From assembly GCF_004364245.1 (NCBI RefSeq), contig NZ_SOAV01000009.1, forward strand, positions 248,001 through 312,000: DNA of 64,000 nt, given 5' to 3'. Below, piece by piece: positions 38,922-43,751 of this stretch. The DNA comes from Streptomyces sp. BK208 (lineage in GTDB: Bacteria; Actinomycetota; Actinomycetes; Streptomycetales; Streptomycetaceae). How positions within the stretch are numbered: position 1 is the first letter of the stretch; each line of letters begins with the position of its first letter. The notes beneath the pieces were generated by a model. That model had not been told where the DNA came from. It did not search any database and worked only from the letters and a program-made list of their open reading frames with translations. A program made the position numbers and the translations under genes.

Positions 38922-40271
38922 TCAGAGGGGCGGTTGTGCGGGTGCCGGGCCCAGGGTGGTCGTGCCGGGCGCGGTGCGGTGTCCGAGGCCGGTGCGGTAC
39001 GCGTCCAGGGCCGCCTCCACGCGCCCGGTGCGGCGCAGCAGGTCGCCGAGGAGCCGGCACAGGTCGGCCAGGTCGCCGGCCGCGCCGGCCCGCTCCAGCA
39101 GGCTCAGCGCACGGACGTAGTGCTCCTCGGCGGTCTCGGTGTCCCGGGCGTCCTCGGCGATGATGCCGAGCAGCCGGTGCGCGCCCGCGGAGTGCACCGC
39201 GCCGCGCTCGGAGGAGAGGTCGTCCAGGACGCCGTGCAGCAGTTCGGCGGCCTCGGCCGACTTGCCGCGCCGGTGCAGCACGTCGGCCAGTTCGACGGCG
39301 ACCTGGCTGCTGTAGAGGGCGGCCCGGCTGGCCGACAGCATCCCGAGGGCCTCGCGCATCTCCTCCTCCGCGCGCGGGAGTTCGCCGTTCTGGGCGAGGA
39401 CGTAGCCGCGCATCCAGTGGCAGTTGGCCAGCTCCGTGCGCAGTTGCAGCGTGCGGTACAGCTCGGCCGCCTTGGCGAGCGAGGCGTCGGCGTCGGCGAG
39501 GCGGCCCTCGGCGAGCAGGGTGCGGGCGACGGACCGGTGCATGCGGGCCACCAGCGCCGGGTCACCGGCGGTGGGGGCGAGGGAGAGGGCGAGTTCGGCG
39601 GCCTGGGCGGCGCGTGCGTGGGCGCCCATGTCCATGTACGGGCCGATCGCGCTGGCGTAGAGCAGCAGCAGCGCGTCGGGGTCGTGCAGGCCGCCGCGGT
39701 TCAGCTCGTCGAGGGTGGACTCCAGGAGGTAGACGGCGTACCGCAGTTCACCGGCGAGGTAGTGCGCGAGGGCGCGTCCGCGCACGGCGGGCACGCGGGC
39801 GGGCAACGGAGCGCCGGCCTCGGCGAGGCACTGCTCGGCACGCTCGAAGTACTCACGCCCGTCGGTCAGTTCACCCGTCTCCACGGCGCACTCCCCGAGC
39901 CCGAGCAGCGCGGCGGCCCGTTCCTCGGCCAGTTCGTGCTCCTCTGCCTCGGCGAGCAGCCCGGCGTACTGCCCGGCCGCCTCTTCGGCACCCCCGGTGG
40001 CGAGGGTGCGCTGCGCCTCGGTGAGCCTGAGGCGCAGGTCGGTGGCGAGGTGGGCGGGGCGTCCGGTGGCCAGCTCCTCGTAGCCGACGCCGAGCCGCTC
40101 GGCGAGGTGGCGCAGCGCGTCGTCGGAGGGGCGGACGCGGCCGGCCTCCAGGGTGGAGATGTAGGCGGGCGTGTAGGCCGGTTCCGCCAGCTGGCGCTGG
40201 GTCAGTCCGCGCTCGGCCCGCAGTCGCTGCACCCGGCGTCCGACGGCGTTTCGGTCGTCACGGTCACCCAC
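38922..40271 (-). CDS. XRE-type HTH regulator with C-terminal TPR repeats (RRNPP-like architecture)
   Basis: 449 residues. HTH_XRE: VGRRVQRLRAERGLTQRQLA ... YTPAYISTLEAGRVRPSDDALRHLAERLGV (residues 10-65). From about residue 80 to 440 the protein is a chain of helical TPR-like hairpins (AAGQYAGLLAEAEEHELAEERAAALLGLGE; VARTLLAEGRLADADASLAKAAELY; AEEHYVRALSLLERAG). Such HTH-TPR proteins in Firmicutes bind short imported peptides. GTG start. The gene is divergent from a 63-residue exported peptide across a palindrome-rich 112-bp region. It could alternatively be one of the many Streptomyces XRE-TPR regulators without a peptide ligand. Confidence 0.88.
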   Translation of the reverse strand: MGDRDDRNAVGRRVQRLRAERGLTQRQLAEPAYTPAYISTLEAGRVRPSDDALRHLAERLGVGYEELATGRPAHLATDLRLRLTEAQRTLATGGAEEAAGQYAGLLAEAEEHELAEERAAALLGLGECAVETGELTDGREYFERAEQCLAEAGAPLPARVPAVRGRALAHYLAGELRYAVYLLESTLDELNRGGLHDPDALLLLYASAIGPYMDMGAHARAAQAAELALSLAPTAGDPALVARMHRSVARTLLAEGRLADADASLAKAAELYRTLQLRTELANCHWMRGYVLAQNGELPRAEEEMREALGMLSASRAALYSSQVAVELADVLHRRGKSAEAAELLHGVLDDLSSERGAVHSAGAHRLLGIIAEDARDTETAEEHYVRALSLLERAGAAGDLADLCRLLGDLLRRTGRVEAALDAYRTGLGHRTAPGTTTLGPAPAQPPL

Positions 40272-40317
40272 TGCCGACTCCCCCTGTGGCTCTTGCCGTT
40301 CGACTCGGACGGCTCTA

Positions 40318-40347
40318 GGTTAAACCGCGTATTAAGTGCGCTTAACC
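40318..40347. promoter_or_regulatory. Nested TTAA palindromes in the divergent HTH-TPR/peptide promoter
   Basis: TTAAG-TGCG-CTTAA (40332-40345) is a perfect inner dyad; GGTTAA (40318-40323) and TTAACC (40342-40347) form an outer dyad. The patch is far more AT-rich than its surroundings and is a good operator for the HTH protein. Confidence 0.55.
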
Positions 40348-40383
40348 GTGCTTGACACACCCGCTGATTCCGCAGAGGACACC

Positions 40384-40575
40384 GTGCCCGGACGCACCCG
40401 CACCGCCGAACGTTACGCCAGGGCCCTCGCCGCCGCCGTCGCCGCCGTGGCCTGCCTGCTGCTGGCCGCGAACGCGGTCCCCGCCGACACGGCACCCCGC
40501 TCCTCGCCGTCGGCGCCGGTACCGGAGCCCGACGGCGCCCAGCCCGCCCGGGACGCGGCCTCGGCGGTCGGCTAG
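40384..40575 (+). CDS. Short exported peptide divergent from HTH-TPR regulator (candidate signal pre-peptide)
   Basis: 63 residues. Basic n-region (MPGRTRTAERYAR), a 20-residue hydrophobic core (ALAAAVAAVACLLLAANA) and a likely cleavage at VPA before DTAP leave a mature tail of about 29-32 residues, Pro/Ser/Ala-rich and ending DAASAVG. The GTG at 40384 follows AGAGGA by 4-5 nt; an in-frame GTG at 40348 lacks a site and would bury the signal peptide. Size, export signal and divergent placement suit a peptide pheromone, but no family match is recognised. Confidence 0.6.
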   Translation: MPGRTRTAERYARALAAAVAAVACLLLAANAVPADTAPRSSPSAPVPEPDGAQPARDAASAVG

Positions 40576-40659: not shown

Positions 40660-41739
40660 TCAGCCCTGGGTCTGCAGGCGGCTCAGTTCACGCTGGACGT
40701 GGTCCAGCGCGCCCTCCCGGCTGCCCGGCACACGACCGCGCAACGCGGCCAGCGGTGGGCCCAGTTCGCGGGCCCGCACCGCGTCGCGGATCCGCCCCCA
40801 CTGATGGTGGGCCCGGTCGGCGGCCGCCTCCACGGCGGGCGCCTGCGGGGGCTGCCCGGCACCGAGCCGGGTCTCGGCCACCGCCAGCCAGGCCCGGCAG
40901 CTGCGCACCGGGTCCCCCGCGAACATCGCCAGGTCGGCCCGGACCTCGGCCCAGTGCAGCGCGTCCTCCGAGGCGGGCCCGTACGCGTGGGCCGCGGCCC
41001 GCTCGTGCCGGGCGGCGAGCGCGTCGGCGTCCCCGTGCCGCCCGAAGCGCACCGCGGCGGCGATGACGGCGTGCGGGTCGCCCGCCACCGGCCCCGGCGC
41101 GGTCAGCACCAGGTCCGTCGAGGCCACCGCGCCGCCGCCCGCGGCGTCGGCGGCAGCCCGGGCCAGTGCCTGCTGGTGCAGCACGTCCGGCGGCGGCCGG
41201 TGCCCGCTGCGCAGGATCGTCGCGACACCCCGCATGTACGCCGGTACGGCCACCGTCCGCCGGGCGGGCGGCGGCGCGACGCGGCCGTAGACGGCGTTGT
41301 TGCGCCCGCAGTCGAGCGGGTGGGCGCGCAGCCACTGCCAGGTCTCGTGGTCGGCGTGCAGGTCGAGCAGCAGCGTCGTCGCGCCGCTCGGCCGCAGCCG
41401 CAGCTCCTCGCGGATCCAGTGCCAGGGCAGGGCGGTGTAGCGGACGGTCGCCGGGGTCGTGCGGGCCAGCGCCAGGTGCGGCAGGCGCTGGCGCCGGTCC
41501 AGCTGGAGCTGCCCGGCGACGTAGACGGTGAGCGGTCCGGGGGCCGCCGCGGCGGCCCGCAGCCGGGTCAGGACGGCCTGCGGCTCCAGCGGGTCGGCGA
41601 GTTCGACGACGTTCGCCGTGTCCGTGCCGGAGAGCACGGCGGGCGGCACGGCCGCGAGCACGGGGAGCACCGAGGCGGCGTCCACCAGGCACCCGCGGCC
41701 CACGGGCGCCGCCGCGAGCAGCAGCACGGTCCCGGGCAT
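40660..41739 (-). CDS. Hypothetical protein, possibly a degenerate caspase-like fold with helical tail
   Basis: 359 residues. I do not recognise a family with confidence. The N-terminal half alternates strand-like and helical segments, including PLTVYVAGQLQLD and TTLLLDLHADHE. These sit where caspase-like peptidases have their YxGHG and LLLDxCHS motifs, but the catalytic His and Cys are absent. The C-terminal 120 residues are helical and Ala/Arg-rich (RHERAAAHAYGPASEDALHWAEVRADLAMFAGD), TPR-like. The ATG at 41739 follows a GGGGGAGGGGA site; an upstream ATG at 41793 is less likely. Adjacent to the SpoIIE phosphatase gene on the same strand. Confidence 0.7.
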   Translation of the reverse strand: MPGTVLLLAAAPVGRGCLVDAASVLPVLAAVPPAVLSGTDTANVVELADPLEPQAVLTRLRAAAAAPGPLTVYVAGQLQLDRRQRLPHLALARTTPATVRYTALPWHWIREELRLRPSGATTLLLDLHADHETWQWLRAHPLDCGRNNAVYGRVAPPPARRTVAVPAYMRGVATILRSGHRPPPDVLHQQALARAAADAAGGGAVASTDLVLTAPGPVAGDPHAVIAAAVRFGRHGDADALAARHERAAAHAYGPASEDALHWAEVRADLAMFAGDPVRSCRAWLAVAETRLGAGQPPQAPAVEAAADRAHHQWGRIRDAVRARELGPPLAALRGRVPGSREGALDHVQRELSRLQTQG

Positions 41740-41895
41740 GTCCCCTCCCCCTGTCGTTCCCTGTCGTTCCGCGTCGATCACGTACGGCAGCACCGTAGCC
41801 GTTGCGACCGCGCGGCGGTGCCTCCGGGCGTCCGGCGCCCGCGCGACGCGCTGCCCGCCCCGTGCCCCGCCCCGTGCGTGCCGCGGCCAGGGCGC

Positions 41896-43089
41896 CTACG
41901 GCCACACCGGCGGCCGCCCCGCCCGCCGCACCGCGAAGACCGTGGTGTCGTCCCCCAGCCGCCCCCGGCAGTGCCGCAGCGTGCCGTCGCGTACGACGTT
42001 CACCAGCCGCTGCGGCGAGGTGTCCGACGGGTCGCCCGCGACGGCCGCGACGACGGCCTCGCCGTGCGGGTAGAAGGCCCCGTCGGGATCGCGGGCCTCG
42101 GTGACCCCGTCGGTCACCAGCAGCAGCGTCTCGTCCGCGGCGAGCGCGGCGCGGGCGACCGGGAGGACGGAACCCGGCGTGAGCTCGCTCATGCCCAGCG
42201 GCAGACCGCCGGTCACCGGCAGCGGACGGACACCGCCGGGCCCGACCGCGAGCGGCGGCTCGTGGCCGAAGTTCACGATCTCCACGGCGTCCGGCTGGTC
42301 GAGGCGGAAACCCACCAGGACGGCGGTGGCGAAACGGTCCCCGTCGGCCCCGCCGAGGGCCGCGGTGTGCGCCCGGTGGCGGAGCATGCGGATCTCCAGG
42401 TGTCCGGCGACCACGGCGAGGTCCGCCTCGTGGTAGGCGGCCTCGCGGAAGGTGCCGAGCAGGGCCGCGGCCGCGTCCACCGCGCCGAGCCCCTTGCCCT
42501 GCACGTCGCCGAGGAGGACGCGGGTGCCGTGCGGGCCCGGCTGGATGTCGTAGAAGTCGCCGCCCACCCGCGCCTCGCTGTCCGCGGCGAGATACACGGC
42601 GGCGTGGTCCAGGCCGCCGAAGCCCGCCGGCAGCGGACGCAGCACCGTGCGCTGCGTGGTCTCCGCGATGTCCCGCATGTGCAGCATGCGCTGTTCGCCC
42701 GCGACCCGGAACGCGGCGGCCACCACGGCGACGAGCCCGCCGATGACGACGAGCATCAGCCCGGGCAGCCCGGTCTCGTCCCGGTGTCTCCAGACGTTGT
42801 CGGCGAGGATGTAGACGACGAGGGACAGCACCGCGAACACGGCGGTGCCGCGCACCCCGCAGAGCGCGGCGGCGACGCCGGGCACCAGGACGGTCCAGGC
42901 CACGATCTGGAAGACGTTCGTGGCCACGTCGGCCACCGCGATGGCCGTGAGCATCAGGAACGGGACCATCCAGGCGACGCTGTGGCCGCGCACGCTGAGC
43001 AGTTCGTGCCGGGACTCGGCGGCGGTCCGCCCGACGGCGAAGGCCAGCCCGCCGAGCACCTTCCGGCCGCCACGCACCGGCTCTCGCAC
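41896..43089 (-). CDS. Membrane-bound SpoIIE-type PP2C phosphatase
   Basis: About 397 residues with the GTG at 43087-43089; GTGs at 43099-43101 and 43075-43077 are alternatives. Four hydrophobic segments (VAWMVPFLMLTAIAVADVATNVFQIV, VLVPGVAAALCGV, AVFAVLSLVVYILA, GLMLVVIGGLVAVVAAAF) precede a PP2C/SpoIIE domain: VGGDFYDI, LLGDVQGKGL, NFGHEPPL, LLLVTDGVTEARD and DDTTVFAVRR, with the metal-binding acidic residues in place. It probably dephosphorylates an anti-anti-sigma factor in an envelope-stress or developmental switch. Confidence 0.88.
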   Translation of the reverse strand: MREPVRGGRKVLGGLAFAVGRTAAESRHELLSVRGHSVAWMVPFLMLTAIAVADVATNVFQIVAWTVLVPGVAAALCGVRGTAVFAVLSLVVYILADNVWRHRDETGLPGLMLVVIGGLVAVVAAAFRVAGEQRMLHMRDIAETTQRTVLRPLPAGFGGLDHAAVYLAADSEARVGGDFYDIQPGPHGTRVLLGDVQGKGLGAVDAAAALLGTFREAAYHEADLAVVAGHLEIRMLRHRAHTAALGGADGDRFATAVLVGFRLDQPDAVEIVNFGHEPPLAVGPGGVRPLPVTGGLPLGMSELTPGSVLPVARAALAADETLLLVTDGVTEARDPDGAFYPHGEAVVAAVAGDPSDTSPQRLVNVVRDGTLRHCRGRLGDDTTVFAVRRAGRPPVWP

Positions 43090-43214
43090 GTGTCCCCTCA
43101 CACGGGACAGCGAAACACGCCCCCGCCGGGCCCGCATCCGGACTTGCCAGTCCCGGCGCCCAGGTGTGCCCTGGTAGACGGGGGCAGACGGGGCGAGGCG
43201 AGAGGAGTGCGCCC

Positions 43215-43751
43215 ATGGCTCACGCGACACCCGCACACACGACGGCCACCGGCACCCGCACCGGCCCGGACCCGGGCACCCCCGGGCGCACGACGCCCGA
43301 CGTCTTCGGCAGGAGGACCCACCTGCTGATGAAGTGGGCGATGCCCGTCGTGACCGCGCTGGTCTACGGCTACTGGGTCGCGTCCGTCCGCCGCCACGGC
43401 GGCCCCATCACCGGCTGGAACCTGCTGATCGGCTTCCTGTCGGTGCTCGCGTTCGCCGTCCTCTACTTCGCGGTCCGCGCCGTCTCCCGACGACTGCCGC
43501 GCGAGGCCCACGCGGCACTGTGGGGAGCGTTCGCGGGCAGCGCGCTGGGCTTCCTGTACTCGGGCAGCGGCGTCGCCATGTTCACCTGCGTCCTCGCCTC
43601 GCTGCTGCTCGCGGCGGCGGTGACGGCCACGCTGATCTACCACTACTACACCCACCGGGACGCGGCGGACACCCGCGCGGCCTGGGAGGCCCGCGAGGCC
43701 GGGAGGGCCCACGACGCCCGGACGGCGGTCCGGGCGGCGCGCACCACCTGA
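43215..43751 (+). CDS. Multi-pass membrane protein, function unknown
   Basis: 178 residues. A Thr/Pro/Gly-rich N-terminus of about 30 residues precedes four hydrophobic segments (MKWAMPVVTALVYGYWVA, GWNLLIGFLSVLAFAVLYFAV, ALWGAFAGSALGFLYSGS, FTCVLASLLLAAAVTATLIYHYY) and a charged Ala/Arg tail. GAGGAG lies before the ATG. Divergent from the phosphatase gene. No motif is recognised. Confidence 0.8.
   Translation: MAHATPAHTTATGTRTGPDPGTPGRTTPDVFGRRTHLLMKWAMPVVTALVYGYWVASVRRHGGPITGWNLLIGFLSVLAFAVLYFAVRAVSRRLPREAHAALWGAFAGSALGFLYSGSGVAMFTCVLASLLLAAAVTATLIYHYYTHRDAADTRAAWEAREAGRAHDARTAVRAARTT

Follow-up and report, generated by a model that had tools for sequence, protein, structure and literature searches.

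Does the very small open reading frame that faces an HTH-TPR regulator in Streptomyces sp. BK208 encode the peptide that this regulator reads, and, if so, which part of it carries the signal? The locus lies in the window, by which we mean the whole stretch of 64,000 nucleotides that was analysed. A first-pass annotation had proposed a peptide-signalling pair of the RRNPP type, with the signal in the Pro/Ser/Ala mature tail of a tiny exported product. This interpretation is partly supported: the pair is conserved and divergent, with a dedicated operator and an ORF under selection, but the candidate signal moves from the tail to the signal-like core. The locus has the following features (window positions).

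38922–40271, minus strand: XRE (HTH_31)-TPR regulator, 449 aa, GTG start; orthologues found in relatives
40293–40321, plus strand: predicted sigma-70-like promoter of the mini-ORF, TTGCCG-17-TAGGTT, by consensus only
40313–40346, no strand assigned: operator with TTAA half-sites at 40320, 40332 and 40342 (0/+12/+22), from recurrence and genome searches
40374–40379, plus strand: ribosome-binding-like site AGAGGA of the mini-ORF, from sequence
40384–40575, plus strand: mini-ORF, 63 codons, GTG start at 40384
40417–40482, plus strand: conserved core of the mini-ORF, residues 12–33, ending AANAVP, under purifying selection
40483–40572, plus strand: Pro/Ala/Ser tail of the mini-ORF, residues 34–63, unconserved, neutral, absent in six relatives

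The tiny exported gene reported opposite the regulator is thus present as a 63-codon ORF whose export signal, like every use of the term signal peptide for it here, is a call made by eye. Its product has a charged start, a hydrophobic stretch, AANAVPA and then Pro/Ala/Ser-rich residues; residues 25–37 read LLLAANAVPADTA.

The regulator, its operator and its partner

As anticipated, the regulator begins with an XRE-type HTH and continues with TPR-like helices. The HTH_31 domain spans residues 10–68 (E 2.5e-11), several TPR families match residues 84–430, and an AlphaFold2 model (mean pLDDT 88.4, pTM 0.77) consists of the HTH followed by 18 TPR-type helices at 73–433. The protein has the layout of RRNPP/RRNPPA receptors (cytoplasmic, HTH plus TPR repeats, about 250–500 aa). 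Does this architecture identify a peptide receptor, as had been proposed? In structure comparisons the model resembled NprR (5dbk, Z 26.5), Rap (25–26) and AimR (20), but folds outside RRNPP scored equally high, with MalT at Z 27.0 and APC subunits at up to 31.4. The likeness to NprR and Rap therefore stands, but it is shared with MalT and with eukaryotic TPR proteins. Because these also match, the fold is too generic to prove peptide sensing; as modelled, it would allow the regulator to bind a peptide. Assignment to named families was rejected for NsdA (NCBIfam NF053720, 23.9 bits against a curated cut-off of 75), for AfsR/SARP (32.5 bits against 1430 with the AfsR model, TPR part only) and for STAND-type MalT, to which the match is confined to the TPR region rather than being full-length with a nucleotide-binding domain.

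The nested TTAA palindromes noted earlier in the shared promoter resolve into three phased half-sites that recur in relatives and are unique in the genome. The exact triple at 0/+12/+22 is found at 87/110 clade loci, with one mismatch at 3/110 and two or more at 20/110, the latter including loci at which sites 2 and 3 are 13 bases farther apart or only the inner pair is left. The consensus of 89 distinct operators from both clades is CTAGGTTAAAC-NNNN-ATTAAGC-NN-GCTTAAC, and all 89 share T at −27 and the −10 dinucleotide TA. The predicted promoter boxes lie at 40293–40298 (TTGCCG) and 40316–40321 (TAGGTT), so that the −10 overlaps half-site 1. A model built from 22 of the 89 operators recovered only this site in the own genome at E≤10 (E 2.9e-9), and a pattern allowing up to 2 mismatches matched once in the 7.7 Mb genome, here; written backwards as a control, the pattern matched once forward and once reverse. 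Neither pattern nor model found a further operator in the own genome that would indicate a wider regulon, and on these searches the pair therefore appears to be its own regulon. At L010, L057, L058, L060, L081, L106 and L221–L224 half-site 3 lies 13 bases farther from half-site 2, at +35 instead of +22. Some related loci (L016, L019, L071, L221–L224) carry a GTAAG-NNNN-CTTAC palindrome at the regulator start.

How constant is the partnership? When 150 Streptomyces genomes were searched with a mini-ORF model, the mini-ORF adjoined the regulator in 56/56 genomes of the regulator clade, with E from 5.8e-19 to 0.009; 53 of these have a regulator at least 81% identical, and G062 (74%), G124 and G139 (in pieces) were added by their upstream ORF. 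Only 2/94 other genomes gave a match at E≤1e-4, namely G022, in which mini-ORF and operator are intact and only the last 22 regulator codons remain, and G013, which holds a degraded remnant without regulator or operator. By locus, the mini-ORF was found at 109/110 (the exception is L097), counted over loci that partly overlap because the two source searches may hold the same species, and it was still found where 1.4–1.9 kb of other DNA separates it from the regulator. The predicted conservation of a regulator-peptide pair is borne out, and an adjacent small ORF with an export signal (read by eye), as expected of RRNPP/RRNPPA systems, is present. In the subclade of L070, L073, L074, L083 and L097, other DNA, DUF397-like by eye, lies between regulator and mini-ORF. 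As for the neighbourhood, window positions 40660–41793, beside the mini-ORF, give a weak EACC1-type caspase match (32.3 bits against a cut-off of 140), and 41896–43236 encode a SpoIIE phosphatase; a caspase-like neighbour occurs at 56/68 clade loci with any flanking match.

Core and tail of the mini-ORF

Which part of the product is conserved? Among mini-ORFs it is the hydrophobic signal-like core, which ends LxxAANAGP. Over 108 distinct ORFs, a set that includes 7 starts of long peptidase genes, the columns up to AANAGP hold Arg −15 and Leu −3 in 100/108 each, and those of the c-region hold Asn +2 in 97/108 and Pro +5 in 103/108. Selection was measured on the 101 distinct mini-ORFs alone (the script caught 115 ORFs, 108 of them distinct, including the 7 long peptidase ORFs; L023, L070, L073, L074, L083, L097, L105, L143 and L147 were left out). 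Core and tail differed sharply, with pN/pS of 0.21 versus 0.85 in close pairs (n=42) and 0.35 versus 0.91 in more distant ones (n=38). For a binned test, 1,500 mini-ORF pairs were drawn and those with equal-length, low-divergence regulators kept, leaving 640 in four bins of regulator divergence, over which pN/pS was 0.24, 0.35, 0.47 and 0.56 for the core and 0.98, 1.0, 0.83 and 0.78 for the tail. The signal peptides of M64 proteins, compared at similar divergence, change more quickly than the core (pN 0.171 vs 0.074 and 0.316 vs 0.198); this control was matched on M64 rather than regulator divergence and has only 4 M64 pairs in its first bin. Since the mini-ORF is under selection at the protein level, it is very probably translated, as the first-pass annotation had presumed.

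The tail behaves otherwise. It varies from 1 to 76 residues without a conserved end, and six genomes (G108, G139, G128, G032, G109 and G087) stop the ORF at the core, giving tail-less products of about 32–37 residues that end ANAGPH, ANAVPR or similar. The last 5–12 residues, where a conserved signal had been sought, thus belong to a neutral stretch of variable length that these genomes lack. The placement of the signal in the Pro/Ser/Ala mature tail (pN/pS 0.85–1.0, against 0.21–0.24 in the core) has to be given up, the selection tests and the tail-less forms having ruled it out. In RRNPP/RRNPPA propeptides the mature pheromone lies in a conserved C-terminal stretch, which the mini-ORF product does not have. 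Codon usage within the core is also uneven: Arg 13 (window 40420–40422) is AGG, AGA or CGA in 87/99 mini-ORFs with Arg there, and the corresponding rates are 5.6% in regulators and 8% at earlier Arg codons.

Origin and possible role of the mini-ORF

Where does the mini-ORF come from? Where regulators are about 58–74% identical, the position of the mini-ORF is taken by an exported M64 peptidase (PF09471) or, at five such loci, an S33/alpha-beta hydrolase adjoins the regulator. M64 lies within 5 kb of the regulator in 30/32 clade-B genomes (exceptions G051 and G057; in G105 it is downstream and not divergent), and any M64 match occurs in only 4/56 mini-ORF genomes (G118, G016, G067 and, weakly, G011), with none found in the own genome. 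A family search found the regulator family in 9/17 genera, Streptomyces among them; 20 loci fetched from it comprise 4 that match M64 and 12 with a neprosin-type exported protein, two of which were tested against Pfam and matched PF03080 (E 3.1e-26 and 7e-26). L188, L196, L197 and L202 have neither, and L196, from the same genus, has the mini-ORF core. An operator similar to that of the mini-ORF clade is usually present at the peptidase-holding slots. Because the slot in related clades holds M64 or neprosin, the mini-ORF probably descends, in shortened form, from an exported peptidase gene and has been kept under selection.

In a midpoint-rooted tree of 48 rows, a 100/100 branch sets the mini-ORF loci apart; their neighbours are the M64 rows L111 and L115 (99/82), and the neprosin rows lie farther out. 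An earlier tree with a distant outgroup, for which 66/142 distinct rows were used (from clade A every fourth row and those labelled 'none'; six labels were assigned manually), is rooted inside the mini-ORF clade on a branch flagged as long, so that 'peptidase first' is the better order of events and not a certain one. Apart from composition, no resemblance in sequence between the core and M64 signal peptides was detected among the matches listed, and the homology claimed is therefore one of place, operator and type of export signal. An S33-type hydrolase gene elsewhere in the own genome (G000 C1:531848–533131, unlinked, 72%) has, by eye, no TTAA operator in its upstream gap of ~110 bases. At L117 the regulator faces a divergent S33-type hydrolase gene, followed by a TTAA array resembling the operator and by the beginning of an M64 gene, which gives the appearance of two peptidases under a single regulator.

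Did the regulator change together with its neighbour? Groove positions were predicted not from coordinates but from what we take to be the canonical TPR register. On that assignment, 6/17 sites fixed differently between mini-ORF and M64 clades are groove positions (171, 243, 283, 333, 370 and 374), against 30/269 comparable sites (p=0.006); this count is that at 80% with more rows (p 0.006), and at 85% it was 5/14 (p 0.008). The commonest residue of the neprosin clade is the M64 one at 13/17 sites and at 4/6 groove sites, so those changes lie on the mini-ORF side. The contrast between M64 and neprosin clades leans toward the groove too (2/4 sites, p=0.067), and the predicted groove had no overall excess of conservation (0.826 versus 0.833 at other helix positions, p=0.60). 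The groove changes connect the emergence of the mini-ORF with a switch of ligand and, with the dedicated operator, make the mini-ORF core the best candidate ligand.

We therefore favour, tentatively and with confidence a little short of even, a dedicated autoregulated pair in which the core ending LxxAANAGP is the likely ligand of the regulator, a role that we infer. The regulator would bind the phased TTAA operator and probably repress both the mini-ORF and itself, because the operator covers the −10 and the start region. The mini-ORF would encode a small hydrophobic peptide in which the signal-like core does the work and the remainder is dispensable. Its ancestor would have been an exported peptidase gene at this position (M64-type among the closest relatives, neprosin-type farther away) from which the catalytic domain disappeared but promoter, operator and an export signal did not. 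Either intact or as a fragment freed by signal peptidase and an intramembrane protease, the core would most likely bind the TPR groove and so alter operator binding, closing a positive or homeostatic loop; export and re-entry or import of the peptide are likewise presumed. The own genome has 13 SBP_bac_5 oligopeptide-binding matches, which are common and not specific, and M50-type membrane protease matches, which are usual; together they lend this processing and import scheme weak support. As only the membrane-crossing front is preserved where relatives carry a secreted protease gene, the locus suggests a left-over export signal turned into a signalling or membrane peptide. The full history, in which an actinobacterial circuit lost a secreted protease, kept its regulator with a changed groove and turned the leftover export signal into the pheromone that this regulator binds, we consider somewhat unlikely. 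Several observations count against the dedicated pair: mini-ORF and M64-clade regulators are ~70% identical and could therefore respond to one ligand that has nothing to do with the mini-ORF, and G022 keeps mini-ORF and operator after near-total loss of the regulator. The missing likeness of the core to M64 signal peptides, the root that the outgroup places inside the mini-ORF clade, the groove's lack of excess conservation and the lean of the M64–neprosin contrast also weigh against it.

The likeness of the regulators and the state of G022 also fit a mini-ORF that encodes an independent small membrane- or secretion-associated protein, beside a regulator sensing another signal, for example the peptides made by proteolysis that peptidase-linked relatives plausibly sense. 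The conserved part is indeed a membrane-spanning segment, and tail-less forms would need no cleavage. We nevertheless regard this as fairly unlikely, given that the operator is unique in the genome, so that no other target of the regulator is seen, that clade-specific groove changes accompany the mini-ORF, and that the near-fixed Asn and Pro of the c-region exceed the needs of a bare membrane anchor. That the mini-ORF is a functionless relic, the leftover signal sequence of a peptidase gene after loss of its catalytic domain, accords with the M64 or neprosin genes that relatives carry at this position, with the neutral tail and with the degraded, operator-less remnant in G013. It is improbable when core pN/pS is 0.21–0.24 over a clade with 101 distinct ORFs, the motif is kept in tail-less forms, and operator and start are kept.

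What of the remaining readings? A classic RRNPP pair with its pheromone in the secreted tail would account for the HTH-TPR architecture, the divergent exported ORF and the presence of NprR and Rap among the closest bacterial folds. A tail that is neutral (pN/pS about 1), varies in length without a conserved end and is lacking in six genomes leaves it hardly any chance, and to judge from the sequence comparisons it is already largely refuted. A small hydrophobic product under a dedicated repressor-like operator could also be a membrane-damaging toxin held down by the regulator in a toxin-antitoxin-like module. This is very unlikely, the core resembling an ordinary export signal and G022, though indirect as evidence, living with mini-ORF and operator beside 22 regulator codons. 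The rare Arg 13 codons, so much more frequent there than in regulators or at earlier Arg codons, would suit a leader peptide whose translation governs transcription or stability of the RNA. Yet no co-directional gene follows the mini-ORF in the window, where the next large ORF (40660–41793) is on the other strand, and selection falls on amino acids; we give this reading scarcely any credence.

If the dedicated pair with a core-derived ligand is real, the locus would capture the birth of a pheromone, in which a secreted enzyme dwindles to its export signal while the regulator persists in a retuned form. Streptomyces, whose signalling literature is dominated by small molecules, would gain receptor-type signalling by peptides, and RRNPP-type peptide-receptor signalling would be placed outside Firmicutes with its evolutionary origin visible. 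The oligopeptide importer BldK has a role in development, and oligopeptide importers would gain a concrete candidate ligand. Even if the ligand step is wrong, the mini-ORF, with its conserved core and neutral tail, is a cautionary micropeptide, for which the annotation 'exported peptide' points to the wrong end.

Comparison with known systems

How does the pair relate to known peptide-receptor systems? NprR controls a neutral protease, and NprR-NprX and other RRNPP systems share with our locus the HTH-TPR layout, a place for NprR among the best bacterial structural matches, and a link to exported proteases. Unlike them, the pair has no conserved C-terminal pheromone, a Streptomycetaceae host and a single operator of its own, and because that pheromone is lacking we do not file it as an RRNPP member, even though on our reading it would behave like an RRNPP or signal-sequence pheromone system. 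More distant XRE-TPR paralogues show other arrangements. Those at L206–L210 (G077, G003, G068, G017, G011) are ~27% identical to the window regulator and 59–89% to the L206 copy; at 5/5 loci (L207 by eye) they face a very small divergent ORF whose product begins with a hydrophobic segment and has Cys-Cys conserved at the C-terminus. The window pair matches the classic RRNPP arrangement less well than these pairs do. Another distant paralogue (L159/L216, G018) faces a 72-codon exported ORF ending KEWNNTLDVPPPKMQ.

In streptococcal Rgg-SHP systems a short hydrophobic peptide gene lies beside an XRE-type regulator. The six tail-less mini-ORF products resemble in layout the SHP precursors, which have about 20–40 residues and their active part at the end; the others do not, most being longer with a neutral tail, and no sequence relation to SHPs was seen. 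SHPs are described as short propeptides in a part of PMC9765709, whose main text does not contain the word 'actinobacteria', and the large RRNPP survey, as far as its account in PMC10075063 goes, covered Firmicutes and viruses. Among the titles and abstracts that literature searches listed, none describes this pair, which does not establish its absence from print.

The enterococcal pheromones offer a parallel for a signal at the end of an export sequence. By the account in PMC7117660, cCF10 corresponds to the final seven residues of the signal peptide of a lipoprotein and is read by PrgX; cCF10 and cAD1, with PrgX and TraA, combine an HTH peptide receptor of the RRNPP family with a pheromone taken from where a signal sequence ends, which is also the region conserved in the mini-ORF. 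Unlike the mini-ORF products, the enterococcal precursors are lipoproteins with a lipobox Cys; the core ends AANAGP with no Cys conserved there, and most mini-ORFs have a short, free tail. The enterococcal precursors are also chromosomal and their receptor plasmid-borne, whereas here the genes are neighbours.

The XRE-TPR regulators of M64 and neprosin genes in Streptomycetaceae, which belong to the same orthologous group as the window regulator, are 51–74% identical to it and share the TTAA half-sites and the divergent exported gene. They differ in that this gene is a full peptidase, at some loci an S33-type hydrolase, and that the ANAGP core is absent from it.
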